Of a stretch of DNA of 37,037 nt, positions 3,320-35,225 are shown in pieces. Position numbers and translations under genes: made by a program. Under the pieces are notes generated by a model that did no database searches, was not told the origin of the DNA, and saw only the letters and a list, made by a program, of their open reading frames with translations. The stretch is from NCBI GenBank assembly GCA_009695095.1, contig SIBQ01000023.1, positions 1 to 37,037 of the forward strand, given 5' to 3'. Origin of the DNA: Lacunisphaera sp. (GTDB lineage Bacteria; Verrucomicrobiota; Verrucomicrobiia; Opitutales; Opitutaceae). Numbering within the stretch: position 1 is the first letter of the stretch; each line of letters opens with the position of its first letter.

Positions 3320-3331
3320 GGTTGTACATGG

Positions 3332-4620: not shown

Positions 4621-5502
4621 TCAATCATGCACGATTTCCGTGCCGACGCCCTGGTCGGTAAAGATTTCGAACAAGAGGCTGTGCGGCATCCGGCCATCGA
4701 CAAAATGGACGCGTTGCACGCCCTCCTGCAGGGCACGCACCGCGCTCTGCACTTTCGGGCGCATGCCCTTGTCAATCACTCCCCGCTTTTTTAAACCCTC
4801 CACCTCGCCAACCCTGACGGTGGAGATGAGTGATGCGGAATTCTTCGGATCCGCAAGCAGTCCGGGCACATCACTCATGAATACCAATCGCCGGGCGCGC
4901 AGTGCACTCGCCACCCGACCGGCCACCGTGTCGGCATTCACGTTATAAGGTTTGCCATCGAGGCCCTCGGCGACTGGCGAGATCACGGGCATAAAGCCTT
5001 CGGCGATCTCCTTTTTGATCAGTTTCACCTTCACTTCAGTAATTTCGCCGACGTAGCCGAGGTCGCAGGGATTGCCGTCATCATCGATGGTAAGCTTGTC
5101 GCAGACAATCACGCTGTCGCCCGGCAGGCCCTTCGGCCGGGCCTTGACGGCCGCCAGCGTGTCGCAGACATCCTTGTTCACCACCTCGTCGAGTGTCTTT
5201 TTCACGATGGCGATGGTCGCCTCATCGGTCACCCGCAGGCCGTTGACAAAAGTGGGTATCAAGCCCGATTCATCCATCGCGCGGCTGATGGCCTTGCCTC
5301 CGCCGTGCACGACCACAACGTTGATGCCGACCGCCGCCAGGAAAGCGAGGTCCGTGGCAACGCTTGTCCGTACTGTCGGATCAGGATCATCCATGAAACT
5401 GCCGCCGTATTTGACGACAAAGATGGCACCGTGAAAATTTTGGATGTAAGGCAGTGTCTCCGGCAATACCCGTGCTTTGGCGATAATTTCGGCTGTGTCC
5501 AT
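4621..5502 (-). CDS. argB: Acetylglutamate kinase
   Basis: ArgB phosphorylates N-acetylglutamate and is usually the controlled step of the pathway. The 293-aa protein has the nucleotide/substrate loop KYGGSFMDD (most homologues have KYGGNAM), the [12 protein letters not shown] loop and the NVNADTVAG motif. An N-terminal helix precedes the first beta strand ([16 protein letters not shown]). In established work on this family that N-helix marks the hexameric, arginine-inhibited enzymes, which fits an ArgJ-type acetyl-recycling pathway. Start chosen at the ATG at 5502; a GTG at 5526 would add eight residues. It lies 57 bp downstream of the decarboxylase stop. Confidence 0.96.
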
Positions 5503-5559
5503 TGATGAGCAAAGTACCACGCGCACAGAATTACTGCAACGATGGAGTCGGGCCAGGGC

Positions 5560-6699: not shown

Positions 6700-6712
6700 G
6701 GCGGCGCCCGGG

Positions 6713-8164: not shown

Positions 8165-8198
8165 GGAATCGGGACGTTGATTTCTTGGTGAAGCTGAT

Positions 8199-8225
8199 AC
8201 GCCGCGGGCGTCGGGCCCACGGCGT
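8199..8225 (-). promoter_or_regulatory. GC-rich hairpin in the hss leader
   Basis: The 138-bp gap between argJ and hss contains an interrupted inverted repeat: ACGCCG, one mismatch, GGGC, 5-nt loop, GCCC, one mismatch, CGGCGT. It sits 34 bp upstream of the hss ATG. There is no T tract on the minus strand, so it is not a classical intrinsic terminator. It could stabilise the mRNA 5' end, mark processing between argCJ and hss, or be a control site. Function is not known. Confidence 0.45.
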
Positions 8226-8302
8226 GTCGTCAGAAATTTTGCGGAAGCCGGAGCGAGTGCAAGAATTATTGGGTGACGAGAGTGTGCCGGCCGGACGGCC
8301 TT

Positions 8303-9535: not shown

Positions 9536-9547
9536 GGATGACGAAAA

Positions 9548-10579
9548 TCAGGTCAACCCGGCGGTCTCGGGAAAACCGAGCCACTGGTTCATGATCTGCA
9601 CCGCCTGGCCGCTTGCCCCTTTGACGAGATTGTCGAGCGCGGACGTAATGACAAAATTGCCCGTGCGTGCATCGTGCACCGCGGAGATATCCATGCGGTT
9701 CGTGCCGGCTACATGGGCGGTATCGGGCGTCTCGCCGGCCGGCAATCGGGACACAAATGGCCGGCCGGCATAGGCGGTGTGCCACGCTGCGTAAAGCGAG
9801 TCGATGGTCGCGCCTTTGGCCGCCGGCACGGTGATGGTGGTGGCAATGCCCCGGCGCATCGGGGCCAGGTGTGGATTGAACTGCACTAGGATCTTCGTGC
9901 CGGTCGCTAGGGAAAGCTGCTCTTCGATTTCGGCGAGGTGCCGGTGCTTGACAAGACCGTAGGCCTTGGCGCTTTCGGCACGTTCCACGAAGAGAAATTG
10001 CTCCTCGGCTTTCTTGCCGGCGCCGCTCACCCCACTAAAGGAATTCATGACGATGTGCTCGTGCGCCACCACGCCGCTCTTCAGCAACGGCACCAGGGGC
10101 ACAAGCGAACTCGTCGGATAACAGCCGGGCGCGGCCGCGAGCTTGATCTCGGTCTTCCACTTCGGATCCGTCAACTCGGGCAGGACGAAACGCGCCTGCG
10201 GCAGCAACTCGGGAGCATGGTGGGAACCGTAATATTTCTCATAGGTCGCAAGGTCGGCCACCCGGAAGTCCGCACTGAGGTCGATTACCTTGCGGCCCGT
10301 GGGAACCAGCGCTCGGGCAAAGTCCGCCGCAGCCCCATGCGGCAGGGCGAGAAACCAGAAGTCAATGTCCTTGCGCGCGGCCAGCGCCGCTGGGTCGGAA
10401 TCGCTGAATTTCAACTGGCCGACCACGGTGCCGCGCAAGGCGGGAATGACCGCGGCCACAGGCTTGCCCGCATGCTGCCGCGAAGTGACCGCCGTCAGTT
10501 TGACCTGCGGATGACCGAGAAGGAGCTTGACCAGAACTTCGCCGGAATAACCCGACGCACCGACTACGCCGACATTCAT
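9548..10579 (-). CDS. argC: N-acetyl-gamma-glutamyl-phosphate reductase
   Basis: ArgC reduces acetylglutamyl phosphate to the semialdehyde with NADPH. The 343-aa protein begins MNVGVVGASGYSGE, a dinucleotide-binding motif, and carries the catalytic cysteine in AAPGCYPTSS. Later family motifs include SGVSGAGKKA and HRHLAEIEEQL. The ATG at 10579 is chosen because it places the Rossmann motif at the N-terminus; the longer open frame to 10891 runs back through the rpsI gene and its terminator. It is the first arg gene after the rpsI terminator, so a promoter is expected in about 10580-10638, though none is obvious. Confidence 0.96.
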   Translation of the reverse strand: MNVGVVGASGYSGEVLVKLLLGHPQVKLTAVTSRQHAGKPVAAVIPALRGTVVGQLKFSDSDPAALAARKDIDFWFLALPHGAAADFARALVPTGRKVIDLSADFRVADLATYEKYYGSHHAPELLPQARFVLPELTDPKWKTEIKLAAAPGCYPTSSLVPLVPLLKSGVVAHEHIVMNSFSGVSGAGKKAEEQFLFVERAESAKAYGLVKHRHLAEIEEQLSLATGTKILVQFNPHLAPMRRGIATTITVPAAKGATIDSLYAAWHTAYAGRPFVSRLPAGETPDTAHVAGTNRMDISAVHDARTGNFVITSALDNLVKGASGQAVQIMNQWLGFPETAGLT

Positions 10580-10638
10580 TGATGAGAGATGCAGATTTAA
10601 TATATCCCGGGGGGGAATCGAGAAGTTTCGTGTGCCGT

Positions 10639-10674
10639 AAAAACAGAAGCGGAGGCCGGGGGGCGCTCCGCTTC
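10639..10674 (-). terminator. Intrinsic terminator of rplM-rpsI
   Basis: On the minus strand a perfect 9-bp stem (GAAGCGGAG / CTCCGCTTC) with an 11-nt loop is followed after two bases by T5. It lies 29 bp past the rpsI stop and about 60 bp before argC. It therefore separates the ribosomal-protein operon from the arginine genes. Confidence 0.85.
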
Positions 10675-10703
10675 GGGTGAAAACCTGTTTCCAGTCTGCG
10701 CGC

Positions 10704-11102
10704 TTAACGCTTGGAGAACTGGAAGCGCTTGCGGGCGCCGGGCTGGCCGGCCTTCTTGCGCTCTTTCTCGCGCGGGTCACGGGTGAGGTGACCGGCCTTC
10801 TTGAGGGTGACCCGGAGTTCGGGATTGAACTTAAGCAAGGCGCGGGCGATGCCGTGGGCGACGGCACCTGACTGGCTGCTGATGCCCCCACCGGCGACGT
10901 TCACAATGACGTCAAACTTGTCTTTGCTGTCGGCCGTCACCAACGGGGCGATAGCGCGGCGTACGAAGTTGTCGTGCGTGAAATAGCTTTCGAACTTGCG
11001 GTCGTTGACCGACAGCTGGCCGGAGCCGACAATAAGGCGCACGCGGGCCGTGGAGGATTTGCGGCGGCCGGTGCCGAGAAAAACGGAGGATTCAGCGCTC
11101 AT
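10704..11102 (-). CDS. rpsI: 30S ribosomal protein S9
   Basis: S9 is a small-subunit protein whose C-terminal tail reaches the P site. The 132-aa sequence has the family signatures [25 protein letters not shown] and the conserved C-terminus FQFSKR. It follows rplM by 8 bp, the nearly universal rplM-rpsI arrangement, and ends at the terminator at 10639-10674. Intact. Confidence 0.98.
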
Positions 11103-17667: not shown

Positions 17668-20562
17668 TTAGAATTTCCTCACGATACCAAACTGGTAGAA
17701 GCGTCCACGCGTGTTGTACATGGATGTATCGTAATTATCGTTGAAGGCACCCGCCGAGAACGGCGGGGGCTCATCGCCGATGTTCTGAACGGTGAAGCGA
17801 ATTTCGGTGCCTTTAAACCACTTGGCTGGAAACGCGGCCAGGGCGTGACCGAGCAGATCATCGGGCGCTGGCTGGCTGTTGTCGGACTTGAAGGCGTAAG
17901 TGGCCGTAAGGTCGAAGGTGACATAGCGCTCCATCGTGATGTCATCAGTCTCCACATCCCTGCCCGTGGCCTTGTCAAGGTAGGCGAAGTGTCCAGCAGC
18001 ATTAGTATACTGGGCATTCGGATCATCCAATACCGAGTGGATGTAATTCACCGTGAAACTTACCGTCCACGAATCCTTCTGCCAAAGCAGGTTATAATAA
18101 CCCTTCCATTCGGGAATGGAGCCGGGGGCGATGGCATCGGACGACGGATCGACAAACTGGCCCAGGTAGTCCCGCGGCGCCGAGCCTACTTCGGGCACCA
18201 CCTCCCACGACAACACCTGGTTAAATTCCAAGGTGTGGGTCAACTGGCCCCACGAGGCCGAAGGCTGCCGATAGGAGATCGAGTAATCAATGCCTGTGGC
18301 GGCGCGTTCGGAAACATTGAGGTTGGTCGAGTCGATCGCCGAACCCGTCTGGTCATCCAGCTGACCGGACGTTGGATCGCGGAAAATCCGCTTGGCATAG
18401 AGCGCACTGGGATTGGTGACGACTGAGGTTATGACGCCGCCTGCGTTCTTTGTGACAATCGGGAACCCAGCGCCCTGGGTCGCGGCATTCTGGTTCAGGA
18501 TGAACTGAGCACCATCGCTAATGAGACCAAGCAGCGCGGTCTGGTAATAGTCCACCGTAATGTTGAGTCCGGGAGCATTCTTCGGGGAATAGATGAAACC
18601 AACCCCCTTGCTGACGCTGGTTGACGGATCCAAATCAGGATTACCTTTGGTCGCAACGTCCGTCTGCTGACCAATGGGAAAACGCAACGGATCGATCAGG
18701 GTCGGGAAGTTATTACCCGGAGCGGCGTAGAGGGCGCCCAGCCCGGGAACCCGGAACCCGGTGCCGTAGCTGGCACGTAACACGAGATCGTCGGTCGGCT
18801 GCCAGCGCAGGCCCACCCGCATGGTGTCAGACCCAAAACTCCGGTGGTCACCAGTAATGTTATCGCGCACCGAGGCGTTGTCGTAGCGCAAATTGCCGGT
18901 GATGCTGAGTTCCCTGACAAAACCCATGTCGGCGTTGTTTTTCTCGGAAAACACGGGAATTGAAACTTCACCGTAGAAGGCATTATTTGACGACGACGCA
19001 TCGAACTTATTGCCCGAATTGTAGCCGAGCAGGTCACCCGCGAAATAAACTGGGTCCGGATTGTAGGTGCTGCGGGTCTTGCGCGTCTCGTACCCGATGG
19101 CAAGATTTGCGGGACCGGACGGAAGTTCCATCGCCGGACCGAACATCTTAAAATCATAGGTTTCAAGCGTGTCTTCGCTCGGCTTTTGGCCGGAAGCCAG
19201 GGATGACTCCAGCGACGTATGGTTATTCCACGTACTGCCGCGGAAAGTACCCGTGGTCCCAGCGCGGGCAAATGGGTTGAACCGGCCGGCCGCGACCTCA
19301 GCGAGGATTTTCGAGTTAAAAACACCATTTGCCTCCGTGAGCACCTGATCCTCGTGCGACATCATATAGGCACTGTCGTAGCCCCAGCCATTGGCAAAGC
19401 TGCCCTTGACGCCTAAGACCACGCGATAATCCTTCTTAGCATATTGCGTCAGGCGGTTACCAGTATCCGTGCCCCGATAGCGGAGAGTGTTGCCCGGGAC
19501 GGTAACGCCTTTGCCCCAAGGATTGTAAATGCTGTTACGGCCAATGGCCGAGTTAATTGCAAACGGAGCCGGGGCAAGACCGTTCGCGGTATACTGGTCG
19601 CCGTAATCGTACTCAACATAGGGCTCAACCTGATTCCCATACAGTTCATAGCCAGCAGCCAAGTGAGCGAGCTTGCGCGTCTGTCCGGGGATTGAGGGGG
19701 AAAACAAGCGAAAGTTGAAGCCATCAGTGCTGGGCACGAATGGCCCGTAATCGGCCGGGCTGGTTCCGAACTGGAGCGAACTGTTCAGCAGGAGCCCGGC
19801 GCCAGCGGAGCCAATGTGCCCTGGAAAGGTCGGGCTGCCACCATTCTGGCCACCCATCGGACGACCATCCGCATTGGCCGAGAGTTTGCGGTCCCGCGCA
19901 TAGAGGGTGTCTTTATCAGAATAGGAACCCACCAAGGTGATATAGCCCTTATTCTTGTCGAAGGTTTGGCCGAAGACAAAAGAGGTATCCCACTGCTGGG
20001 CATCGCCTTGGCCGGAAATGCCGTAGTTGGCGCGCAGTTGCGAGCCAATCCACTTTTTCTTGAGGACAACGTTCACCACGCCAGCCAGCGCATCTGCGCC
20101 ATACACGGAGCCTGCGCCGTCCTTCAGGATGTCAATCGATTGGATGGCATCAATGGGGATGAGATTCAGATCGGCAAACCCGTAAGCCCGGCGACCGTTG
20201 ACAAGGGTGAGCGTGCCACCCAAACCACGAAGATTGACCGACGCGGATCCGTCACCTCCATTGCTATCCAATTCCGTGGTCGCCGCGCCAAAAAACGATG
20301 GCAGGCTGCGAAGGCCCTCGATCGGTGTAGACGCGCCTAGCCGGAGTAGCGTCATAGCCGAATAAGTGGACAGCGGAATAAACGTCTCGCCTTCCGTCTT
20401 GGGAAGAAGTGAGCCGGTAACGACGAATTTCTCGAGCTTGACTGATTCTTCAGCCGGAGCGGCCGGTTGGGCTAAAACGGCATTAGCCGCGAACAGGGAT
20501 AGGCCGGCGCCAAACAGTGACCCGGCTTTCCGTAAATAATAACCCGAGAAGCTATTGTTCAT
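17668..20562 (-). CDS. TonB-dependent outer-membrane receptor
   Basis: The 964-aa protein imports a substrate across the outer membrane using TonB energy. It has a signal peptide (about residues 1-31, ending NAVLAQ) and a TonB-box region LEKFVVTGS near residue 43. A plug domain follows (SASVNLRGLGGTLTLVNGRR, IQSIDILKDGAGSVYGADALAGVVNVVLK), then a 22-strand-type barrel ending in an aromatic strand (FYQFGIVRKF). Length and layout are normal and the frame is intact. The ligand is unknown; the family in this phylum covers sugars and siderophores. A truncated paralogue lies at 1-937. Within the C-terminal barrel, codons for SQPAPDDLLGHALAAFPA fall on a 53-bp sequence shared with the aldo/keto reductase gene. 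The AT-rich region 20600-20680 upstream is the likely promoter area. Confidence 0.95.
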   Translation of the reverse strand: MNNSFSGYYLRKAGSLFGAGLSLFAANAVLAQPAAPAEESVKLEKFVVTGSLLPKTEGETFIPLSTYSAMTLLRLGASTPIEGLRSLPSFFGAATTELDSNGGDGSASVNLRGLGGTLTLVNGRRAYGFADLNLIPIDAIQSIDILKDGAGSVYGADALAGVVNVVLKKKWIGSQLRANYGISGQGDAQQWDTSFVFGQTFDKNKGYITLVGSYSDKDTLYARDRKLSANADGRPMGGQNGGSPTFPGHIGSAGAGLLLNSSLQFGTSPADYGPFVPSTDGFNFRLFSPSIPGQTRKLAHLAAGYELYGNQVEPYVEYDYGDQYTANGLAPAPFAINSAIGRNSIYNPWGKGVTVPGNTLRYRGTDTGNRLTQYAKKDYRVVLGVKGSFANGWGYDSAYMMSHEDQVLTEANGVFNSKILAEVAAGRFNPFARAGTTGTFRGSTWNNHTSLESSLASGQKPSEDTLETYDFKMFGPAMELPSGPANLAIGYETRKTRSTYNPDPVYFAGDLLGYNSGNKFDASSSNNAFYGEVSIPVFSEKNNADMGFVRELSITGNLRYDNASVRDNITGDHRSFGSDTMRVGLRWQPTDDLVLRASYGTGFRVPGLGALYAAPGNNFPTLIDPLRFPIGQQTDVATKGNPDLDPSTSVSKGVGFIYSPKNAPGLNITVDYYQTALLGLISDGAQFILNQNAATQGAGFPIVTKNAGGVITSVVTNPSALYAKRIFRDPTSGQLDDQTGSAIDSTNLNVSERAATGIDYSISYRQPSASWGQLTHTLEFNQVLSWEVVPEVGSAPRDYLGQFVDPSSDAIAPGSIPEWKGYYNLLWQKDSWTVSFTVNYIHSVLDDPNAQYTNAAGHFAYLDKATGRDVETDDITMERYVTFDLTATYAFKSDNSQPAPDDLLGHALAAFPAKWFKGTEIRFTVQNIGDEPPPFSAGAFNDNYDTSMYNTRGRFYQFGIVRKF
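17824..17876 (-). repeat. 53-bp exact repeat, copy A (inside the TonB receptor gene)
   Basis: The plus-strand sequence from 17824 (GGCTGGAAACG...) to 17876 (...CTGGCTGGC) is identical base for base to 31577-31629, and the flanks differ on both sides. Here it is read on the minus strand as APDDLLGHALAAFPA with flanking residues in frame. The receptor frame continues normally on both sides, so this is not a misjoin end. Confidence 0.97.
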
Positions 20563-20927
20563 AATACTGGATGTGCTGTGTTGATAAAAGCCGCTGGATG
20601 ATAGCGATTAACTAATTTCTTGTGGCGAGTTCAGCTGTTTCGGCGATGAAGAGCAAACTATTTTTTTAATTGTAAAAATCATGACCCACCAACTCCTCAA
20701 TAACCATGCGCATCTCTAGCAATATTTTGCGTACCTTGGCTCGAAATCCGGTCAGTCATTTGACTCACATGCCCTCCTTCTAACTCCATTAAGAATGAGA
20801 TGAAATACCACAGCTCGTGTCAACCGGACCGGTTATGACATTCAATATGACGTTCAACCATACGCAAGAGCGGGCCGCCGTTGGATCGAGTCCGCCAACC
20901 CCACCAGCCTGCTCAAGCTAGCGCAGG
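20563..20927. promoter_or_regulatory. Receptor upstream region with palindrome and direct repeat
   Basis: This 365-bp gap lies upstream of the receptor and past the kinase end. It is AT-rich at about 20600-20680, with a T7 tract. A 13-bp perfect palindrome AACCGGACCGGTT lies at 20822-20834. Immediately after it, 20835-20858 contains two near-identical units, ATGACATTCAA and ATGACGTTCAA, spaced 12 bp apart. These could be an operator, but they lie about 260 bp from the receptor start. No clear -35/-10 pair was found. Confidence 0.35.
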
Positions 20928-23095
20928 CTAATCCTCGGTCGGCCGCAGCACGAGCCGGTAGCCCATCGTGTCGGTCGGCCGTGTCTCCGGGGTCAGCTCG
21001 ACGCGGGAAGCCGAGCGGCAGTGAACGGGCCGACCTTCCAGTTGCCCCCGCGTATGACGGGTTCGCAGGCGCCCCGCACGCCGTGGGTCCACTCCCCCAC
21101 GTTGCCGAGCATGTCGTAGAGTCCCCAGTTGTTCGGCTTGAATCTGGCCACGGGCGAAGGTGCATCATGCGAGCCACCCCGGGAGTAGAAAGCCAGCGCG
21201 TTCAGTGCCGGGTCGTCCCGCTCGTTGGTCAGTTGGCTGCCATCGTTGAAACCTGACTCCGTGCCGGCGCGGCAGGCATATTCCCACTCCACCTCCGTGG
21301 GCAGGTCGGCCTGGTAGGACAGCTCCAGCCGGCGTAGCATGTTGTTGGCCTTGTCCAGCACGCCGCCGGTCCCGGCCAGATCGCGCCAAGCCACCTGCTC
21401 CACCGGCCGGGTCTCCTCACCCAGCGCGCGGCCGGTGCTGGGATTTTTGCCGGTGAGCGCCCGGTGCTGCCGCTGGGTCATCTCGGTCTCGGCGATATAA
21501 AACCCCTTCGGGATGTCCCTTTTTGTTCGCGTGAGGTCGGTGCGCTGGCGGCCGCGCTCGTCGGAGGATGAGCCGAGCTGGAATTCGCCCGGCGGCACCC
21601 ATTTGAATTTCAGTTCGCCGGCGTCGGGTAGTTTCACGAGCACCTCGGCGGGCGGGGGCAACCGTTTCATTTCCAGCGGGATGCTCTCCGTGGTCGGCAG
21701 AACATCCACTGCGAGTTCCAGCGTTTGAAATTTAGGCGCGCTGGCCGTGAGGGTGACGCGGCCTGGACGGAGCTCCACTATCGCGGCCCCGCTGCCGTCG
21801 GCTGCCGCCGAGTGCTCGCCGATCGTGAGCTGGGCCTGCGCGGGCAATCCGGTGAAACGCACCGGGTGAGGCGGCACCTGCTCAAGCGGCACCGTGGCTT
21901 CTATCTCATTTTCGCCGCCACCGACCTGCCCCTCCCAATCAACATACCCCGGCGCCTTGACGCGCACGACCTGCGGTTCCGGCAGCAGCTCCAGCTGCAC
22001 CCGGCCGGTCGCGCCGACGGAATGACTGCGTTCGCGATAATTCACCACCGCGCCGGGAGGCAAACCGGTGAGCACAAACAGGCGATTGGCGGAACCGGTG
22101 GGTCGCGACAAAATTGATTCCGGGAGTGAATTCTCGACCGCCGGGGTTGTGACGGCGGAATTGGTCTCCGGCACAACGACCAGCGGAGCCGGCCGGGGCC
22201 ACTGCCAGACCGCCACCCCGACTGCCGCCAGGGCCGCCAGCCCAACCGGCAGGAGCCAGCGCTTCGTGCCGTTCAACTGCTGGATCTGGCGCAGCGCTGC
22301 CAGGGCTGCCGCCGCAGTCTGATAACGTTGCGCCGGATCCTCCGCGAGGCAGGTGCCGATGAATTTATCCCAGCGCGGATCCAGGCCGGGCACCAGACGG
22401 CTGGCGAGTTGCGCCATCCCGTGCGGCTTCCGGCCGGTCAGCATATAATAAGTGATCACGCCCAGTGCATAAATGTCGGAGCGCAGGTCGGACGGGCGCA
22501 TGTTGCGCGCCTCGGGCGACATGAAATCGATCGTGCCGACCATCGTCCCGGTCGTGGTGACACTGTCGCCGGCGAAGGGCGAGGCCGTGCCGCCGGCGCG
22601 GCGGTATTCCTCGTCGGCCACCGCCCGGGCCAGGCCGAAGTCCGATATCTTGGCCTCGCCCGTCTTCTCCAGCAGCACGTTGGCTGGCTTGAGGTCGCGA
22701 TGGATAATGCCCGCCTCATGGGCGTGCGTCAGACCCTGCAAGACCTGGTCCATGAGGCGCTGCACCTCGGCCGCGGGGGCGCCACCGTCTGGTTTGCGGT
22801 TCTTCTCGAACCAATCCTCAAACGAGCCCCCATCGACAAATTCCAGAACCAGGTAGAGCTTGCCCTGACTCTCGCCGAAATCGGTCACATTGACAATGTG
22901 GTTGTGCTTGAGCTTCGCCAGGTTCGTGGCCTCGCGCTTGAACCGCGCCACGAATGACGGCTCCTGGGCCAGCACGGCGGGCAAAGCCTTCAGGGCGAAT
23001 TCCTTTTTCAACGCCGTGTGCTCCACGAGGTAGACCACGCCCATCCCGCCCGCCCGCTCGGCCGGCACCCCGTGCGCGACTATCCCGGCGACCAC
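20928..23095 (-). pseudogene. Ser/Thr protein kinase with PEGA-like and formylglycine-generating-type domains, frameshifted
   Basis: A Hanks-type kinase domain shows AGGMGVVYL, the ATP lysine in FALKAL, HRDLKPANV, DFGLA and SPEARNMRPSDLRSDIYALG. A transmembrane segment (LLPVGLAALAAVGVAVW) follows near residue 290. Then come PEGA-like repeats (VKAPGYVDWEGQV) and a C-terminal FGE-sulfatase/SUMF1-type domain (FKWVPPGEFQLGS, PTEVEWEYACRAGTESGF, GLYDMLGNVGEWTHG, VIRGGNWK). The frame shifts near 21010, giving a premature stop at 20993. With one base inserted it continues VELTPETRPTDTMGYRLVLR, the typical domain end, to a TAG at 20928. The N-terminus (GTG at 23095) lacks a canonical glycine loop and abuts the purK remnant, so it may also be truncated. 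Same-strand fusion of kinase and FGE domains is known in Planctomycetes/Verrucomicrobia. Confidence 0.8.
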
Positions 23096-23183
23096 GCTTT
23101 CTTCAGTCTGTCGGCCGGCTAGCCTGGCTGCCGCGCCTTGATTTTTTGGGCGAACCTGAGCGCCCTGTCCGCCTCGCGCGAAG

Positions 23184-23333
23184 TCACGGTGAAAGGCCCC
23201 CTCTCTTGCCGCCGGTCCGCAGTTCGTAGATGTGCGCCCGGTAACCGAGGCGGGTGGCGGCCTGCGTCAGCATCCGGCCGAGCTGTACGCCACCGGGAAT
23301 ACCGATGGTTTTCCCGGAGGAAACCTGGCGCAA
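23184..23333 (-). pseudogene. purK: purK N-terminal remnant
   Basis: Directly after the purE stop, a minus-strand frame reads KTIGIPGGVQLGRMLTQAAT then RLGYRAHIYE. This closely resembles the start of PurK (N5-carboxyaminoimidazole ribonucleotide synthase), normally KTIGILGGGQLGRM. The frame ends at a TGA at 23184-23186 after about 50 codons, against about 370 for the full enzyme. No ATG is present; a TTG at 23333 could serve. The ATP-grasp domain is absent and the kinase gene begins within 90 bp. The usual purE-purK order supports the identification. Confidence 0.75.
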
Positions 23334-23340
23334 ACCCTGC

Positions 23341-23826
23341 TCAGGGGAGTTTCGCCTTCAGCACCTTTCGGGTCTGCGTGACCCGGAAATTTTTCCAAGC
23401 CCTTCGTGTCTTAAGATCGTCCCGGGCCAGAATGGCCGCGGCGAACAGGGCCGCATTGATCGCCCCGGGCTTGCCGATGGCAAAGGTGGCGACGGGCACG
23501 CCGCCCGGCATTTGCACCATGGAAAGCAACGAATCGAGGCCCTTCAGCGCGGCCGATTCCATCGGCACGCCCAGCACCGGCAGCAAGGTGAGGGCTGCCG
23601 CCACGCCGGCGAGATGCGCCGCGCCACCGGCCGCCGCGATGACCACCTTCAGCCCGCGGGTTTCGGCGCCGGAGCACCATTCATACGCGAGCTGTGGCGT
23701 GCGGTGGGCGCTGATCACGCGCTTTTCATAGCTGACGCCGAGCTGGTCGAGCGTCTGCGCACAATGTTGCATCGTCTCCCAATCGGAGACGCTGCCCATG
23801 ATGATACCGACAAGTGGCTTGGCCAT
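23341..23826 (-). CDS. purE: N5-carboxyaminoimidazole ribonucleotide mutase
   Basis: PurE moves the carboxyl group of N5-CAIR to make CAIR in purine synthesis. The 161-aa protein has the class-I motifs [20 protein letters not shown] and [11 protein letters not shown] (homologues usually have GGAAHLPG). Class I PurE depends on PurK for substrate, yet the adjoining purK is a remnant, so another purK or an alternative supply is implied. The start at 23826 leaves a 43-bp gap to the symporter terminator. Intact. Confidence 0.95.
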
Positions 23827-23869
23827 GACCCTAGGCTGTAGGCTATAGGCGCCCGGCTCGGCAAATGAA

Positions 23870-23893
23870 AAGGCAGGACTTTAATCCTGCCTT
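23870..23893 (-). terminator. Terminator of the symporter operon
   Basis: A perfect 9-bp stem AAGGCAGGA / TCCTGCCTT with a 6-nt loop lies 10 bp past the symporter stop on the minus strand. It is followed by TTCATTT after the stem's own TT. The T tract is imperfect but the hairpin is strong. Confidence 0.75.
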
Positions 23894-23903
23894 CGTTTCA
23901 AAC

Positions 23904-25661
23904 TTATCGCCTCTCACTTTCAGCATTCAGAGCAGCGGCGTGTTCCTGGATGTATTCCTGCTTGAGCCCGAGCTGCTCCGGGGCGTGCAGCACCAGCATC
24001 TTCATCCGGATGTCGGCGGGCACGGCGGCGGCGGTCGCCTTGGACACGACGATCATCAGGCCGATGGCCAGCGGCACGGCCCAGATGGCGGGCTGCTCGG
24101 CCAGGATGCGCATCAGCGGATGCGCCGCCCAGTAGGCCTTCAGGTCCACCAGGCCCAGATCGCTCAGGTTGATGATGGTCGTGCAGGCCAGCGCGGCGAG
24201 CCCGCCGCCCAGCATGCCGCTGGCCGCGCCCTTCATCGTCATGCCGCGCCACCAGACGCTCATGAAGAGCAGCGGAAAGTAGCTCGACGCTGCGATCGCG
24301 AACGCCTGGCCGACCATGAAATTGATCTGCAGCTTTTCCACCTGCGTGCCGAGCGCGATGGCGATGCCGCCGACGAGGACGGTGGACACCTTGAACACTA
24401 ACAACCGCTCGGCGTTCGTCGCGTGGGGTTTGAGCATCCGGCCGTAGATGTCGTGCGCGACCGCGCCGGTCATCGACACGAGCAAGCCGCTGAACGTGCT
24501 CATGAACGCGGCAAACGCCCCCGCGCAGGTGATGCCGCTCAGGATGCTGCCCCAAAGGCCGCCCACGGCGCGCGGTAGCTCGAGCACGACCTTGTCCGTG
24601 CCCTTGGCCCCGGTGGCGGCGTAGAGTTCCGGCAGCAGGTTCCGCCCCAGCACGCCGAAGACCGGCGGGAACACGTAGAAAATGCCGATCAGGATCATCA
24701 CCCACATCGTCGTGCGCTTGGCCGCGACGCCGTCGGGGTTCGTGTAGAACCGCACGAGGATATGGGGCAGGCCGGCAGTGCCGCACACGAGCGCGACGAT
24801 CAGCGAGTAAGTGTAGAGCAGCGAATAAGGCCGGGACTCCTCGGCCGACAATCCCGCCGCCTTGGCGGCCTTGGTCGTCAGCGGCCCAAAGGGCGAGATC
24901 CACGGCGAGTCGGCCGGCGCCTTCTCGGTGAGCGGCTTGCGCTCAACTGTCTGGGTGAGCGCTGACGTCGTGCCGGCGAGCTTCTCGACCCGGCCGTCGT
25001 TGGCGCCCAGATGCGAACCGTAGAGCCCGTAGACCGACATCAGCACAAAGACGGGCACGCTGATCGCGAACATCTTCATCCAATACTGGAAGGCCTGCAC
25101 GAGCGTGATGCCTTTCATGCCGCCCAGGGCGACATTGAGCGTGATCACCGCGCCGACCAGCACCACTCCGCCCCAGTAGGGCATGCCCGGAAAAATATAC
25201 GCCAGCGTCGTGCCGGCACCCTTCATCTGCGGCATGGTGTAGAAAAACCCGATGAACAGCACAAAGCACACGGCGATCTTGCGGAAAAGAGGCGAATCGA
25301 AGCGGCCCTCGGCAAAATCCGGAATCGTGTAGGCGCCAAAACGGCGGAGCGGCCCCGCAATGAACAGCAGCAGAAAGAGGTAGCCGCAGGCGTAACACAC
25401 CGGATACCACAGCGCGTCGTAACCGGAGGACATGACCATGCCGGCCACGCCCATGAACGACGCCGCCGAGAGATATTCGCCGGAAATCGCCGACGCGTTC
25501 CAGCCGACCGACACCGAGCGGCCGGCCACGTAAAAGTCGCCCGCCGTTTTTGACCGGCGCGCCGACCAGAAACCCAAGCCGATGGTCGCGGCCACTGTGA
25601 CAAATGAAAAGGCGAAGATCCAGGGATCGACGCCGTTGAGGAAAGCGAGGGGCAGGGCCAT
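23904..25661 (-). CDS. Sodium:solute symporter, ActP (cation/acetate) type
   Basis: The 585-aa protein belongs to the SSS family and probably takes up acetate or another short carboxylate with Na+. More than ten membrane segments are visible. The DFYVAGRSVSVGWNASAISGEYLSAASFMGVAG stretch near residue 50 is the ActP/SSS signature (given here in part: DFYVAGRSVS, GEYLSAASFMG), and GTAGLPHILVRFYTNPD is the ActP-type cytoplasmic loop. The ATG at 25661 is preferred over a start at 25700 because the DUF485 gene ends 4 bp before it. That pairing is the standard yjcH-actP arrangement. Ligand assignment is by family analogy. Confidence 0.88.
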   Translation of the reverse strand: MALPLAFLNGVDPWIFAFSFVTVAATIGLGFWSARRSKTAGDFYVAGRSVSVGWNASAISGEYLSAASFMGVAGMVMSSGYDALWYPVCYACGYLFLLLFIAGPLRRFGAYTIPDFAEGRFDSPLFRKIAVCFVLFIGFFYTMPQMKGAGTTLAYIFPGMPYWGGVVLVGAVITLNVALGGMKGITLVQAFQYWMKMFAISVPVFVLMSVYGLYGSHLGANDGRVEKLAGTTSALTQTVERKPLTEKAPADSPWISPFGPLTTKAAKAAGLSAEESRPYSLLYTYSLIVALVCGTAGLPHILVRFYTNPDGVAAKRTTMWVMILIGIFYVFPPVFGVLGRNLLPELYAATGAKGTDKVVLELPRAVGGLWGSILSGITCAGAFAAFMSTFSGLLVSMTGAVAHDIYGRMLKPHATNAERLLVFKVSTVLVGGIAIALGTQVEKLQINFMVGQAFAIAASSYFPLLFMSVWWRGMTMKGAASGMLGGGLAALACTTIINLSDLGLVDLKAYWAAHPLMRILAEQPAIWAVPLAIGLMIVVSKATAAAVPADIRMKMLVLHAPEQLGLKQEYIQEHAAALNAESERR

Positions 25662-25665
25662 GGCG

Positions 25666-25959
25666 TCAGCGCTTGACCGACTTGACCTCGTCCTGCTCAA
25701 GCGCGATGGAGCGCTTGATGAAGAGCCACGAGATGAACCAGACGAGCGGGAAGAACAGCACGCCGAGGATGAGCCAGCTCAGCGTGAATCCTGCCACGCG
25801 CGTCGCCATCAGGGCCGGCGCAAAATAGTTGAGCAGGGGCAGTCCGAGCAAAGCGGTGAGAAACGTGGCCGCGCAGGCCACGGACAATTTCAACTGGCGG
25901 CGCATGAGCAGGCGGAGAAACTCCTCGCTATGCACGGTGTCGTGGGGCGGCGGGGGCAT
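25666..25959 (-). CDS. DUF485 family small membrane protein
   Basis: The 97-aa protein has two long hydrophobic helices (LSVACAATFLTALLGLPLL and GFTLSWLILGVLFFPLVWF) with a charged C-terminus, the DUF485/YjcH layout. It precedes the ActP-type symporter by 4 bp, as is typical, and may act as its accessory subunit. Start ATG at 25959 (MPPPPHDTVHSEEF); a GTG at 25998 would add 13 Arg/Cys-rich residues that look untranslated. Confidence 0.85.
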   Translation of the reverse strand: MPPPPHDTVHSEEFLRLLMRRQLKLSVACAATFLTALLGLPLLNYFAPALMATRVAGFTLSWLILGVLFFPLVWFISWLFIKRSIALEQDEVKSVKR

Positions 25960-26029
25960 TGCGCAGCACCATGGCCGCACGCGCCGGGCAGGCAACACGG
26001 TTTTTCCAAGCGGCGTCCGAATCCGGCGC

Positions 26030-26857
26030 CTAGAAATCCAGGAACTGCAACGGTCCCAGTTTCACCTTGAGGCGCTCGTCGAAGGATTTCACCCGCTGCC
26101 AGTCGGTGCGGGTGCGTGTGAACGTGGCGTCCACCGGGATGAACAGGACCGACACGTTGAAGTTGCCCGTCATGGCCGTGATCATCGGCGCAAACTTGGG
26201 ATCCACGACAGTGAAATCCATGCGGGCCTCGCCCGCCTCGACCTTGGCCACCAGCTTCACCCGGAACGACTCGCGAAGCCGGAGCGTGACGTTCTCAACC
26301 AGCCGGGTTTCTTTCCCGACCAGGACCAGGATCTGGAACTTGTCCACGGGGATGTCCCGGCGGTTGCCCTGCAACGGGACCTCGAAGGCAATGCGCGACT
26401 CCTGCACATATCCCACCCGCGGATGCTCAAGATCCAGGGTCAGGTTCTGCCCGCTGACCCGCAATTGCGGGGGCTGGCTTCCCGGGATTCGGGCCGCTTC
26501 GGCGATGCGAGCCACCCGCTCACCCCGTCTTTCCCTGCGCTTGCGGTATTCCTTGAGCTGCCTCTCCGACGGTGGCTTGCCGTCGATCTTCAGGGGTGTG
26601 AACTGGTCGGCGTAGGGTTTCGACGGGTCAAATCACACGATGGTCTCGCCCTTGTTTCCACCCTTGCTGGCCCTGATAAGCGTGGACTCGGTGTAGGCCC
26701 AGTGCTCGGTGTCCTGGCTGCTGTTCTTCATCGCGTCCCGGAACAATGCGATCTCGTCGGCGGAGGCGGACCGCGGCTGTTCCCCGGCCCGCAGGCCGGC
26801 GGAGGCACCCAGCAGGATCAGGGTCAAAAGCAAACGGCCCATGGCGGCAGAAACCAT
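26030..26857 (-). pseudogene. Secreted protein of unknown function interrupted by an in-frame TGA
   Basis: One reading frame runs from a start near 26857 (or 26842, MGRLLLTLILLGASAG, a signal peptide cleaving about LRA/GEQ) to a TAG at 26030-26032. It is broken only by a TGA at 26633-26635. On either side the sequence is protein-like: FRDAMKNSSQDTEHWAYTES before, FDPSKPYADQFTPLKIDGK and QLKEYRKRRERR after. There is no frame change, so this is a point nonsense mutation, for example from CGA or TGG. I do not recognise the family. It follows pckG by about 100 bp on the same strand. The downstream fragment could still be translated from an internal start at 26515. Confidence 0.7.
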
Positions 26858-26954
26858 GTGCACGGATTTTGTTTCGGCCATTTTATTGGTGGAGCGGCCT
26901 GCCCTCAGGCCGCTCAAGCGCATTGAGGTCAACGCGCCCCACCTGTTTACATGC

Positions 26955-28724
26955 CTACATGCGGCAAATGAGCAGCTCCCGCTCGAACATCAGCTCCTTG
27001 GGCAGGAAGGCGTGCAGGTCGAGGAACAGTTCCTCGTGGCCGAGCACTTCGTTGCGCCAAGCGGCACGGTCGAAGGCCTGGAGTTCCTCGAACTTCTCGC
27101 GCGGGTAGTCGAGCCCCTCCCAGTCGAGGTCGTCATAGCGGGGCATCCAGCCGATGGGGGTCTCCTTGGCGCGGCTGCCGCCGCGGGCGCGGTCCACGAT
27201 CCATTTGAGCACGCGCATGTTTTCGGAAAAACCAGGCCACATGAACTTCCCCTCCCTGTCCTTGCGGAACCAGTTCACGTGGAAAATGCGCGGCGTCTCG
27301 GTGAGCTTGCGCTGCATGTTGATCCAGTGGCGGAAGTAGTCGCCCATGTTGTAGCCGCAAAACGGCTGCATGGCCATTGGGTCGCGGCGGACCTTGCCGA
27401 TGGTGCCCGCGGACGCCGCGGTCATCTCGGAGCCCATGGTGGCGCCGACATAAACACCGCTCGACCAGTTGAACGCCTGGTAAACCAGCGGCATCGTCGT
27501 GGCGCGGCGGCCGCCAAAGATGAAGGCGCTGATCGGAACGCCCTCGGGCTTCTCCCAGTCCCGGTCGATCGTCGGGCATTGCGCGGCCGGCGCGGTAAAA
27601 CGGGAGTTGGGGTGCGCCGCCTTGGTCCCCTGTTGCCTGGCGATCGCGGGGGTCCAGTCGCGGCCCTGCCAGTCGATGGCGTGCGAGGGCGGTCTTGCCG
27701 CCATGCCCTCCCACCATACGCCGCCGTCATCGGTTTGCGCGACGTTGGTGAAGATGGTGTTCTTCGCCAGCGCCGCCATGGCGTTGGGGTTGATGGCGTG
27801 CAGCCGGCCGTCCGGGGCCGGCTTGATCCACGCGATGTCGTCGCCGACCGTCCAGACTTTCCAGCCTTGCTTCGCAAAGCTCTTCGGCGGGACGAGCATG
27901 GCGAAATTGGTCTTGCCGCACGCGCTGGGGAACGCCGCGGCCACGTAGGTCTTGTCGCCCGCGGGGTTCTCGAGGCCGAGAATGAGCATGTGCTCGGCCA
28001 TCCAACCCTCGTCGCGCGCCATTGCGCTGGCGATGCGGAGCGCGAAACACTTCTTGCCCAGCAGGGCGTTGCCGCCGTAGCCGGAGCCGTAGGACCAGAT
28101 TTCACGCGTCTCGGGAAAATGGACGATGTATTTCTCCCGGTTGCACGGCCACGCCACATCCTTCTGCCGCGGCTTGAGCGGGGCGCCGACGGAATGCAGG
28201 CAGGGCACCACGCGCTTGTTGTCCTGGTCGATGAGATCGAACACCGGCTGGCCGATGCGGGCCATGATGCGCATGTTGACCACCACGTAGGGCGAGTCGG
28301 TCAATTCCACCCCGATCTGCGCCATGGGTGAAGCGAGCGGGCCCATGCTGAACGGCAGCACATACATCGTCCGGCCCTGTATGCACCCGGCGAAAAGCCC
28401 GCGCAGGGTTTTCTTCATCTCATAGGGATTGACCCAGTTGTTGGTCGGGCCGGCGGCATCCTTGGACTGGCTGCAGATGAAGGTGCGGTCCTCGACGCGG
28501 GCCACGTCGCTTGCATCCGAACGGGCGAGATAACATCCCGGCCATTTCTTCTGGTTGAGACGGGTGAAGGTGCCGGTCTTCACCATTTGCCCGCACAGCC
28601 AGTCGTATTCTTCCTGGGATCCATCGACCCAGTGAATGGCGTCGGGCCGGCACAGCTCCGCCATCTTGTTGACCCAACGAATCAGGTGCAGGTTTTTGCT
28701 CAGGGGCTTGGCGGACTTCTTCAT
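26955..28724 (-). CDS. pckG: Phosphoenolpyruvate carboxykinase (GTP)
   Basis: PckG makes phosphoenolpyruvate from oxaloacetate and GTP, the entry to gluconeogenesis. The 589-aa protein has the GTP-type kinase loop [15 protein letters not shown], the oxaloacetate and Mn region GDDIAWIK, and the [14 protein letters not shown] motif of the GTP family (the ATP type is unrelated in length and motif). Start ATG at 28724 ([14 protein letters not shown]), since the longer frame to 28787 runs over a probable promoter region. An acetate-type symporter nearby is consistent with growth on two-carbon compounds, but the link is inference. Confidence 0.96.
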
Positions 28725-28857
28725 GGGCGGAAACTGCGTGGGCCGGGACGGCGAGTAAACGGGAAAGGGCGGGTGGTCTCCGCCCATTAGCCGCGGTTCT
28801 TTGCTTATTCAGTTGCTCCTCACCTGCCGGTGAAAACCGGCCAGACTGTCGGCGGCC

Positions 28858-29022
28858 ATGGTGAAACTCTGCATTTTTGTCGGCACCACCGTCGGGGGCA
28901 CGGCGCTCGGTTTTGCGGCTGACGCGCTGGGTTGCAGCTTCCTGTGGTCGTTCCTCATCAGCGGCGTCGGCAGCGTGGTCGGCGTCTACGCCGGCTGGAA
29001 GACCGCGCAGCTCCTCAAGTAG
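28858..29022 (+). CDS. Small two-helix membrane protein
   Basis: A 54-codon frame begins ATG at 28858 and ends TAG at 29020-29022. The product is very hydrophobic with two predicted helices (LCIFVGTTVGGTALGFAA and FLISGVGSVVGVYAGW) and glycine-zipper-like spacing, ending KTAQLLK. Small proteins of this kind, of unknown function, occur in this phylum from memory. It is divergent from pckG (133-bp gap) and overlaps the end of the CDF gene by 8 bp, tail to tail. Its function is unknown. Confidence 0.6.
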   Translation: MVKLCIFVGTTVGGTALGFAADALGCSFLWSFLISGVGSVVGVYAGWKTAQLLK

Positions 29023-29931
29023 GCGCCGCTCCCGTCCTTGCCGGCTCGATGTGCACCGTGACGTCGCTAATGCCACGGGTGGAGGAGGTGATGAGGGCGT
29101 CCTTCACGGCATGCGCAATGTCTTGCCCTTCGCGGACCGTCCGGTTGCCGTCCACGCGCACCTGGATGTCGACGAGGTGGCTGAGTCCGCTCTTGCGCAT
29201 GCGCACCTTGTCCAGCGCCCCCACCCCCGGCACGGCGAGCGCAAGGGCGCGCACCTCGTTCTCGAAATTCTTGGGGGCGGCCGAGTCCATCACGTCACCC
29301 AGCGCCTTGGTGAACATCCCAAAGCCGTTGAACGCGATGATCACGCAGGCAAACAGCGCCGCCCAGTCATCGGCTGTCTCCCAGCCTTTCCCACCCCACA
29401 GCGCGATGCTGATGCCGACAAACACCGCCCCGGAGGTCATCGCGTCCGACCAGTGGTGCATCGCCTCGATGCCCAGCGCGGTGCTGCCCACCTCCTCGCC
29501 AGCCATACCCATTCGTCGTGAAAACCAGGTTTTCACGACGATCACCCCGGCCAGCACCACGAGCGTCCACCACGCCGGCCCCTGGTGCGGCGCGATGATT
29601 TCATGCACCGCGTGCGATGCCACCCAGGCGGCCATGAGAAAAATAAACAGACGGCTAGCCCGGCCAGCGGCTCCGCCTTGCCATGGCCGTAGGGATGGTT
29701 GGCGTCGGGGGGCTGCGCCGCCACCCGGAAGCCCGCCCACACCAGCGTCGACGAGAGGATGTCGAGCAGCGACTCCGCCGCGTCGGCGACGAGGGCGTAG
29801 GTGTGCCCAAAGACCCCGCCGGCAAATTTCACCATCGCCAGCACGGCGTTCAGTGCGATGCCCCGCAGCACCAGCCGCGCGCTGTCTTTGGCGCGCTGGG
29901 TGGCGAGGTGATGGGGATCGCGCGACGGCAT
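29015..29931 (-). pseudogene. Cation diffusion facilitator (CDF) transporter, frameshifted
   Basis: The N-terminal 90 residues (ATG 29931) carry the CDF hallmarks: GIALNAVLAMVKFAGGVFG, then ALVADAAESLLDILSS, and HPYGHGKAEPLAGL. The frame then slips by one base in TTTATTTTTC near 29645. The continuation in another frame gives LFIFLMAAWVASHAVHEII, then EAMHHWSDAMTSGAVFVG with the second metal-site H/D pair and a C-terminal cytoplasmic domain (HLVDIQVRVDGNRTV). One added base restores a 305-codon gene ending TGA at 29015-29017. Family role: efflux of Zn, Co, Fe or similar; the metal is not assigned. The lesion is in a T5 tract, so a sequencing slip is possible. Confidence 0.82.
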
Positions 29932-30030
29932 GGGGTCGACTATGCGCCCCGACTGGGCCGGCTCAAGCTCTCCCGCTTCACGGCAGCATTGACCGCCCCG
30001 CGCGACGGGCCTACCCTGCGCCTGTCACGT

Positions 30031-30486
30031 ATGTCTGACACCGCCACACCGGTCGCCGCCGACCCCGTGAAGCAATTCTCGGTTTTCATCCCCAACCGCG
30101 TGGGCCAGCTCTTCGACCTGACCGGGCTGCTCGCGAAGCACAACGTGCACGTAATGGCCATGACCACGCTCGACACCACCGACTGCGCCATCGACCGGCT
30201 CATTGTGGACGACCCCGATCGCGCCCGCGAACTGATGGCCGCCAACAATTTCGCCTTCACTGAGTGCGACGTGCTCGTCGTGGAAATTTCCGACGAGTCC
30301 CAGCTCAAGGATGTGCTCGGCGCCCTGCTCACCGTCGAAATAAACATCCACTACCTCTACTCCTTTCTGATGCGGCCCCGCGGGCGCTCCGCCCTCGCCC
30401 TCAGCGTCGAGGACAACGACCTCGCCGCCAGCGCCCTCAATACGCGCGGCTTCAAGGTGCTGAACCAGCGGGATATCTCCCGCTGA
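30031..30486 (+). CDS. ACT domain-containing protein
   Basis: The 151-aa protein has two tandem ACT-like units. The first shows FSVFIPNRVGQLFDLTGLLA with the typical glycine-linked turn (NRVGQL), and the second shows VLGALLTVEINIHYLYSFL. ACT domains bind amino acids and control metabolic enzymes; a free-standing pair like this resembles acetolactate-synthase or AHAS-regulator-like and other ligand-sensing proteins. The ATG at 30031 is chosen because the longer frame to 29683 runs over the divergent CDF gene. It is divergent from the CDF gene with 99 bp between starts. The ligand is unknown. Confidence 0.75.
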   Translation: MSDTATPVAADPVKQFSVFIPNRVGQLFDLTGLLAKHNVHVMAMTTLDTTDCAIDRLIVDDPDRARELMAANNFAFTECDVLVVEISDESQLKDVLGALLTVEINIHYLYSFLMRPRGRSALALSVEDNDLAASALNTRGFKVLNQRDISR

Positions 30487-30501
30487 CGCTCCGCGTCAGC
30501 G
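30481..30501. repeat. Perfect hairpin at the end of the ACT gene
   Basis: CGCTGACGC and GCGTCAGCG, 9 bp, flank a 3-base TCC loop and include the ACT stop codon. There is no T tract on either strand, so it is not a classic terminator. The following stretch 30500-30550 has TTCCAAG/TCCAAG-type words of the low-complexity kind often seen between genes in this phylum. Confidence 0.6.
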
Positions 30502-30551
30502 AAGTTCCAAGCAACAAGGTCCAAGTATCAAGAGGGACGCCGCTGCGCCAA

Positions 30552-30966
30552 TCATCCATTGGTACCTGTTACTTGATGCTTCCCACTTGCGGCGCATTGC
30601 GCCGCCCCACCCCCGCCCATCTTTTCGCCGTCGAGCAGGTGTAGGCCGGTCAGGTGGCCGTTCTCATACATCTCGCCGACGTGCCGCCGGCCCTCGATGT
30701 GGATCGGAATGTCTCTCAGCGGCCTCACCCCGGGCCCGGCCATCTTGACCGCCACCCACTCGTTGATGCGCGGCATGATGATGTAGCCGCACATCCTCGG
30801 GTCCTTCACCAAAAGAAATTCCCGTCACTAGGCCCTTGTCCATTTTCACCGGCAGCAGGAAACCCGTCGCGGCCACCTTCTGCCGGGCGAGTGCCACCGT
30901 CACACATTCCCTGGTCATGGGCGTATCCGCCGCGCGCCGGGCGGCGAGGCGGAATGAAATCTTCAT
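30552..30966 (-). pseudogene. Short protein remnant, weakly DUF1805/YunC-like, frameshifted
   Basis: From an ATG at 30966 (or 30918, MTRECVTVAL) a frame reads VALARQKVAATGFLLPVKMD then KGLVTG. It shifts near 30825 and continues LVKDPRMCGYIIMPRINEWV, VRPLRDIPIHIEG and HVGEMYENGHLTGL to a stop at 30552. A deletion of one base restores a continuous frame. The shape (a KG-L-V segment, then a MCGYI strand and a loop with R-x-L-x-D) recalls DUF1805/YunC proteins but only loosely. The last 20 codons run into repeat-like DNA and may not be native. Confidence 0.45.
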
Positions 30967-30988
30967 GGCGCCTGGATCATCGAAGCGA

Positions 30989-31260
30989 CTAGGCCGGCGC
31001 GAACGGCAAAACTCGCAAAGCCCGCCGCCGCAGCGTGTGGCCTTGGAACAGATTGAAGGTCTGGAAAATATGGCCGACGGTCCCGGCGCGGAGCTGGTCG
31101 CGCGGCGCTTCGCCGGGGTCGCCAGTTCGCGGCCGGCGAGCCGGATGAAACCGCTCTCGGGCGCCAGGATGCCGGCAATAAGGTTGAGGAAGGCGGTCTT
31201 GCCCGTGCCGCTTTTGCCGCGCAGCACCCGCTGCTCGCCGCCGCCAGTCTGTCCCGACTG
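30989..31260 (-). pseudogene. LolD-like ABC transporter ATPase remnant
   Basis: A frame with a Walker A motif (RGKSGTGKTAFLNLIAGILA) is joined to PESGFIRLAGREL. It shifts one base near 31128 and then gives HIFQTFNLFQGHT, the Q-loop region of LolD-type ATPases, before a TAG at 30989-30991. The usual residues between RVL and the Walker A loop are missing, and the signature LSGGQ and Walker B are absent. It is a truncated, internally deleted gene, on the same strand as and abutting the DUF1805-like remnant. Confidence 0.65.
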
Positions 31261-31417
31261 ACTGGAGGCCGGGCCGACTTTGCTCGTTCCGGCATATCGG
31301 CGGTCGGGGCCAGCCGCGAAGAGGTGGCCCTGCCCCGCCGCCTGGAGAGGCGGACGGATATTTTTAAAACGGAAATTGCTTTAGGATGCGCAATAACCGG
31401 GCTAGCTTCACGGCCCC

Positions 31418-32404
31418 ATGGAATACACCCACCTCGGCCGCTCCGGTCTCAGAGTTTCCCGTCTGTGTCTTGGCACGATGAATTTTGGGCCGCAAACCAC
31501 CGAGCCTGATTCGTTCGCCATCATGGACAAGGCGGTCGAACTAGGCCTCAACTTTTTTGACACGGCCGACGTCTACGGCTGGAAACGCGGCCAGGGCGTG
31601 ACCGAGCAGATCATCGGGCGCTGGCTGGCGCAGGGCGGCGGCCGTCGCGATTACGTGGTCCTCGCCACCAAGGTATTTGGGCAGATGGACCCCGAGGCAC
31701 GGCCCGACCCCAATCTCGACCGCGGTCTTTCCGCGCGCAAAATTATCCGTGGCTGCGAGGCCAGCCTGCGCCGTCTCCAAACCGACCATATCGACCTCTA
31801 TCAGATGCACCACATCGACCGGCAGTGTCCGTTCGACGAAACTTGGTCGGCCTTCGAGACCCTGCAACAGCAGGGCAAGGTGCTTTACGCAGGCTCGTCG
31901 AACTTTGCGGGCTGGGACATCGCCACGGCGAATCTCCTTGCGCAGAAGCGCAATTATCTCGGCCTCATCAGCGAGCAGAGCGTCTACAACCTCGCCAACC
32001 GCACCGTCGAATTGGAGGTGCTGCCCGCCTGCCGGCACTACGGGGTGGGCGTCATTCCCTGGAGTCCGCTCGCCGGCGGCCTATTGGGCGGTGTGCTGGC
32101 GAAGCCGCCCGGCGGCCGACACGCGAATCCTGATTTTCAGGAAAAACTCGCGGCCAAGCGCCCGCAGATTGAAAAATATGAGGCCTTTTGCCACGAGCTT
32201 GACGAACAACCGGCCGATGTCGCGCTCGCCTGGCTGCTGTCCAACCCGGCCGTCTCCTCGCCTATCATCGGCCCCCGCACCCTCGACCAGCTCACCGGTT
32301 CATTGCGGGCGCTCAGGCTCAAGCTGGATGCGCCCGCGTTGAAGCGCCTCGACGAAATCTTCCCCGGTCCCGGGGGCGAAGCACCCGGGGCTTATGCTTG
32401 GTAG
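31418..32404 (+). CDS. Aldo/keto reductase
   Basis: The 328-aa protein is an NADPH-dependent aldo/keto reductase of the (beta/alpha)8 type. The catalytic tetrad is visible: D and Y in FFDTADVYG (about residues 45-53), K in VVLATKVFG and H in DLYQMHHID. SSNFAGWD, VIPWSPLAGGLLGG and the cofactor loop near SSPIIGPRT follow. The substrate is unknown. The segment GWKRGQGVTEQIIGRWLA right after the catalytic Y is coded by a 53-bp sequence exactly shared, in antisense, with the TonB receptor gene. The family normally has a G-x-G-x-T-E-x-I-I-G-R-W pattern here, so this is probably the original location. The gene stands alone between decayed genes and hppA. Confidence 0.93.
   Translation: MEYTHLGRSGLRVSRLCLGTMNFGPQTTEPDSFAIMDKAVELGLNFFDTADVYGWKRGQGVTEQIIGRWLAQGGGRRDYVVLATKVFGQMDPEARPDPNLDRGLSARKIIRGCEASLRRLQTDHIDLYQMHHIDRQCPFDETWSAFETLQQQGKVLYAGSSNFAGWDIATANLLAQKRNYLGLISEQSVYNLANRTVELEVLPACRHYGVGVIPWSPLAGGLLGGVLAKPPGGRHANPDFQEKLAAKRPQIEKYEAFCHELDEQPADVALAWLLSNPAVSSPIIGPRTLDQLTGSLRALRLKLDAPALKRLDEIFPGPGGEAPGAYAW
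31577..31629 (+). repeat. 53-bp exact repeat, copy B (inside the aldo/keto reductase gene)
   Basis: Identical to 17824-17876 over 53 bp; the flanking bases differ (C before, G after here; T before, T after in copy A). In this gene it is read on the plus strand as GWKRGQGVTEQIIGRWLA. Because the receptor is read on the minus strand, the two mRNAs are complementary through the repeat. Confidence 0.97.
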
Positions 32405-32513
32405 GGCCTGGACCTAGGCGCAAGATTTCGGGTAATTAATGGCCTTGACGGGGTTTATTCCCTGTGGGTCCGATGCGCCAAAGCTGGTGTCGGTCTGGTT
32501 TGATGATGTGGGC

Positions 32514-32563
32514 GCGAGCTTGCTCGCAGCGGTTGGCTTAGAGGCCCCGGAGCTTGCTCCGGG
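32514..32563. repeat. Two short REP-like palindromes upstream of hppA
   Basis: GCGAGC-TT-GCTCGC (32514-32527) and CCCGGAGC-TT-GCTCCGGG (32546-32563) are perfect inverted repeats with the same AGC-TT-GCT core, 18 bp apart. They lie in the 271-bp gap between the aldo/keto reductase and hppA. A CCGGGAATT / AATTCCCCGG pair brackets the following 40 bp. Confidence 0.7.
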
Positions 32564-35153: not shown

Positions 35154-35225
35154 TTTGCCGGACGACCGGCCCCGCCAAACACCGGGCTGGCAGCAACCAG
35201 CAAAGGTGCCTTCTCTCCATCACCC

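Follow-up and report, generated by a model that had tools for sequence, protein, structure and literature searches.

A probable in-frame insertion of a short antisense copy of an aldo/keto reductase gene in a TonB-dependent receptor gene of Lacunisphaera sp.

A TonB-dependent receptor gene of Lacunisphaera sp. carries 54 extra nucleotides, 53 of which are identical to the antisense strand of an aldo/keto reductase gene on the same contig. We consider a single recent illegitimate insertion of a short segment of reductase DNA into the receptor gene to be the most plausible origin of these nucleotides, with a probability of roughly 0.87. The DNA analyzed here, referred to as the window, comprises contig 25 in full (37,037 bases) and comes from a draft genome of 2.14 Mb in 41 contigs which is 91.5% complete and represents one genome of one strain.

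Comparison within the window showed that positions 17824-17876 and 31577-31629 share an exact 53-bp match in the same orientation, with the two copies 13,753 bp apart. The identity ends abruptly, as the adjoining bases mismatch already at the first position on either side and the 30-bp flanks agree at only 6/30 and 8/30 positions, which is background. A 53-bp pair of this kind has a chance expectation of about 3e-22 in the window. The only other exact repeat of at least 20 bp on either strand is a 22-bp match (positions 173 and 18116) that the receptor gene shares with a decayed paralogue of it. Both 53-bp copies lie within open genes on opposite strands, the receptor on the minus and the reductase on the plus strand. 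The identity, the differing flanks, and the opposite-strand placement were therefore all confirmed as given in a preliminary description of this DNA.

The copy at 31577-31629 is the source copy and lies within the reductase gene (31418-32404, plus strand), an open frame of 328 aa with an Aldo_ket_red domain (PF00248). It covers codons 54-71 (GWKRGQGVTEQIIGRWLA), of which the last contributes its first two bases only, and directly follows the motif DTADVY. A search for relatives at E <= 1e-95 in 387 genomes drawn from the phylum gave 10 positives including the window's own, and the 18-residue segment is ungapped in the reductases of all the others (9/9), with TE and GRW likewise kept in 9/9. 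At the nucleotide level, eight of these relatives match over the segment at 30-45 of 54 positions. The solved structure that is closest to the reductase by sequence, 8xr2, is also ungapped through the segment. More distant reductases often differ in length at this point, which indicates that the segment marks this subfamily and not reductases in general.

The derived copy (17824-17876) lies near the 3' end of the receptor gene (17668-20562, minus strand), an open frame of 964 aa with TonB barrel and Plug domains (PF00593, PF07715). Together with one extra A in receptor sense at 17877, it makes up an in-frame insertion of 54 nt (17824-17877, codons 896-913, SQPAPDDLLGHALAAFPA), and homologues without the insert keep AAC directly joined to AAG TGG. 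The receptor C-terminus was aligned with 38 homologue rows, corresponding to 38 of the fetched loci and a subset of the matches listed. One of these, the truncated paralogue at the start of the window (L125), ends short of the insertion site, and the 37 rows that cover it were collapsed by their last 60 residues to 28 distinct homologues. The insert columns hold 0-3 residues in 28/28 of these homologues versus 18 in the window receptor. The preliminary description had correctly located the receptor segment but quoted only 15 residues of it. The best named relative of the receptor is 71% identical and comes from a Lacunisphaera metagenome-assembled genome; its last 60 residues equal those of the receptor in G007, a genome from the window's genus.

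The segment is thus kept in close reductases (9/9) and absent from receptor homologues (28/28), which makes the reductase copy ancestral and the receptor copy derived. This settles the direction of copying as from reductase to receptor, with new receptor residues made from antisense DNA. The same direction had been proposed beforehand, and alignment of both proteins with their homologues, the comparison suggested for it, identified the receptor as the gaining gene.

The ancestral empty site was inferred from the two nearest receptor homologues, L010 (70-75% identical) and L108 (65-68%). Both read AAC AAG TGG at the join, and the window reads AAC, 54 nt, AAG TGG, so that relative to these homologues no target bases were lost at insertion. 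A blastn comparison of the receptor gene with L010 gave the same picture, as query positions 2687-2738 were skipped and the subject pieces abut (end 1653, start 1654, minus strand). In receptor sense, the insert consists of one A followed by 53 templated bases, and the extra A is either untemplated or a 1-bp target duplication. With the empty site of L010 and L108 as reference, the joints show microhomology of 0 bp, or of 1 bp if the insert is placed alternatively. The receptor frame stayed open because the 53 nt and the extra base add up to 54 nt, a multiple of three, and because the antisense frame in use has no stop; of the three receptor-sense frames of the 53-mer, one contains a stop.

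These joints also bear on the question of whether the assembler or a chimeric read placed the 53 nt in the receptor gene. An artefact would likewise yield exact identity, and the genome is a single draft of 41 contigs. However, both copies have correct flanks, the frame is exactly restored by 54 nt, and the insert includes one base that the donor did not supply, while a misjoin at a repeat exchanges flanks and does not add a segment. Moreover, contigs of this genome end at repeats of about 147 bp, so the 53-bp repeat is well below the length that broke the assembly. We therefore regard an artefact as unlikely, in agreement with the preliminary judgment that a misjoin is improbable.

The repeat of about 147 bp lies at the contig end (36889-37037). 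It has 20 other copies of at least 86 bp in the genome which are 78-100% identical, and 16 of these 20 are situated no more than 250 bp from a contig end. Its inner ~45 bp also match in opposite orientation, which indicates a palindromic or MITE-like family. At the other end of the contig, the first 25-27 bp (1-27) recur in five other contigs, where each copy is about 235 bp or less from a contig end. Three dispersed short repeats (26888-26947, 32454-32537, and 35154-35212) have copies elsewhere in the genome which are 81-93% identical. One of the three directly follows the stop codon of a pyrophosphatase gene and one lies in the 5' extension of the pyrophosphatase open frame, which suggests that the true start of this gene is further downstream.

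Other parts of the contig include an arginine biosynthesis cluster (1039-10891, minus strand) with genes for argininosuccinate synthase, a carbamoyltransferase, a class-III aminotransferase, an amino acid kinase, ArgJ, and a semialdehyde dehydrogenase, interspersed with genes for a PLP-dependent decarboxylase and a saccharopine dehydrogenase-like protein. Positions 82-846 hold a chimeric decayed open frame that fuses part of a family-5 solute-binding protein with part of a receptor paralogue. The receptor part corresponds to receptor residues 678-829 (68% identical), and its C-terminal part continues in another frame. This is a second illegitimate junction on the same contig.

Several searches addressed how unusual the 53-bp pair is. 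A 103-nt query gave 13 matches in its own genome, two with the full 53-mer and 11 of 14-27 bp. The genus comparison comprised 21 genomes, the window's own and 20 others, and no full copy of the 53-mer was found in the other 20, which gave only four partial matches of 24-31 bp at E <= 0.001. These four were considered as members of a repeat family and rejected, as they lie in other open frames and without gaps share 29-33 of 53 positions, near the background, which reaches 32 in the 39 loci compared. An exact search of viral contigs with a 33-nt part of the repeat gave 0 matches, and a search of the window against Rfam at gathering thresholds also gave 0 matches.

Exact repeats were further surveyed in 437,037 bp (the window and 400 kb of three other contigs), or about a fifth of the genome. 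This sample contains 34 maximal exact repeat pairs of at least 25 bp, and of these only the 53-mer combines a length of at least 30 bp with distant copies and unrelated flanks. Judging from position and flank identity, we attribute the remaining pairs to paralogous genes, to repeats that are tandem or close together, and to a single family of 26-27 bp present at three places. Comparing the window with the whole genome, where scoring covered 40 of 109 and 40 of 179 first candidates, revealed several dispersed repeat families; the listed matches contained no other pair like the 53-mer. There are two full copies without a repeat family, and the insertion appears to be a one-off event.

A small mobile or palindromic in-frame element, such as a Rickettsia-type palindromic element or a MITE, would offer a different source for the insert than the reductase gene. 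Such an element would fit with an insertion that is in frame and coding, in a genome where dispersed short repeats do occur. It is nevertheless extremely improbable, given that there are only two full copies, one of which is a conserved protein segment, that the 53-mer lacks terminal inverted repeats (first 12 nt versus the reverse complement of the last 12), and that the target duplication is at most 1 bp. No inverted repeats of at least 20 bp were found in the window.

The features found are those of an intragenomic short-segment insertion, namely an insert that equals another locus of the genome, unrelated flanks, and an empty site in relatives. The perfect identity of the copies points to one recent event. 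A piece of about 53 nt of the reductase gene may have been mobilized as a short DNA fragment caught at a break or through a brief template switch, and would then have been joined, antisense and with one added nucleotide, into the receptor gene between AAC and AAG. With the frame preserved, the receptor would have gained 18 residues in a short turn between two of the last barrel strands. As for the joining itself, fragment capture and template switching are both candidate mechanisms, and the microhomology of 0-1 bp is below expectation for template switching or annealing-based integration. A Ku gene (PF02735) gave 0 matches in the window's own genome, as did a reverse transcriptase gene (PF00078), although in a genome which is 91.5% complete these absences are no proof; Ku was positive in 1 of the 21 genomes. 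An origin through a micro-circle was considered because CCAGCC occurs near both segment ends in receptor sense. It was rejected, as the insert simply follows the donor linearly from end to end and never passes the CCAGCC repeat a second time.

The segments ERYVTFDLTATYAFKSDN and WFKGTEIRFTVQNIGDEP flank the insert and appear to be the third-last and second-last strands of the barrel. In TonB-type barrels, the last strand terminates at the periplasm, and by this general rule the turn with the insert would be on the periplasmic side. An AlphaFold model of the receptor built on a six-sequence alignment had a mean pLDDT of 26.3 and a pTM of 0.20 and was set aside, so the assignment of the turn continues to draw on sequence and general barrel topology. 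A PDB sequence search with the receptor returned nine sequences (colicin I receptor, BtuB, and one siderophore receptor, 5fr8) whose best stretches are all within receptor residues 60-215, and the C-terminal topology could therefore not be mapped onto a solved structure. The 18 extra residues are likely tolerated, since a short turn late in the barrel would probably accept a change in length.

The closest described bacterial process is SPDIR, reportedly known from Acinetobacter baylyi through the work of Harms et al. in PNAS in 2016, yet the case is not filed there. As in SPDIR, where the source DNA belongs to the same or another genome, a short segment from the same genome has come to lie at an unrelated site via two illegitimate joints. 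Hallmarks of SPDIR are the replacement of recipient bases and the use of microhomology. The present case is instead a pure 54-nt insertion with microhomology of at most 1 bp and no recipient base replaced relative to L010 and L108, and it is the lack of these two hallmarks that keeps it apart from SPDIR.

Templated insertions at repaired breaks are mainly known from eukaryotic end joining, which involves polymerase theta. They resemble the receptor insert in that a short stretch copied from other DNA is placed at a break and can bring an extra nucleotide with it. They differ in their mainly eukaryotic setting, and the search for Ku gave no match in the window's own genome. Rickettsia palindromic elements, which form multicopy palindromic families, similarly insert short DNA in frame into protein genes and add residues, whereas the event described here involves two copies and a protein-coding source. 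At the level of titles and abstract openings, no report of a natural in-frame antisense copy between two bacterial genes was found, which does not show that none exists; SPDIR itself is named in an excerpt of PMC7192050. The insertion is a real and well-defined copying accident of a known general kind; what makes it unusually clear is that the donor, the recipient, and the empty site can all be seen.

Another reading is that the insertion was retained for regulation in trans, with pairing of the two mRNAs over 53 nt linking their levels via RNase III or translational interference. The preliminary description had pointed out that the mRNAs are perfectly complementary over this length and could pair. 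The complementarity stands, with a duplex energy of -129.5 kcal/mol as computed from the sequence, and pairing in trans would be chemically possible. A precedent for mRNA-mRNA pairing is described in an excerpt of PMC7821165 for Listeria, where it involves untranslated regions (hly 3'UTR with prsA2 5'UTR). In the present case, by contrast, both sites are inside coding sequence. Complementarity is also automatic for any antisense copy of such length and composition and is thus a by-product of the copying. Looking for the same pair in related genomes, as had been suggested beforehand, recovered only the window's own among 21, so the pair is not conserved, and the gene families alone give no functional link between receptor and reductase. 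Retention for trans regulation is accordingly very unlikely, and a role for the pairing is not supported. The combined idea that the antisense copy was retained because it supplied, in one step, a new regulatory link via 53-nt pairing and a new 18-residue periplasmic turn is highly doubtful. No regulatory role is needed to explain the insertion, which is a copying accident and probably neutral.

Being direct repeats, the two 53-bp copies (17824-31629) could allow homologous recombination to delete the 13.7 kb between them. Genes for PEP carboxykinase and for a sodium:solute symporter lie in this interval.

The illegitimate insertion of reductase DNA is an unusually clean case from nature in which a few dozen bases of one gene have become new coding sequence in another, read from the other strand. 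The donor and the recipient were identified together with both joints and with the empty site that is seen in relatives. Insertions of this kind are hard to recognize once they have diverged, and fresh, perfect cases therefore help to measure how frequently bacterial proteins gain residues in this way.
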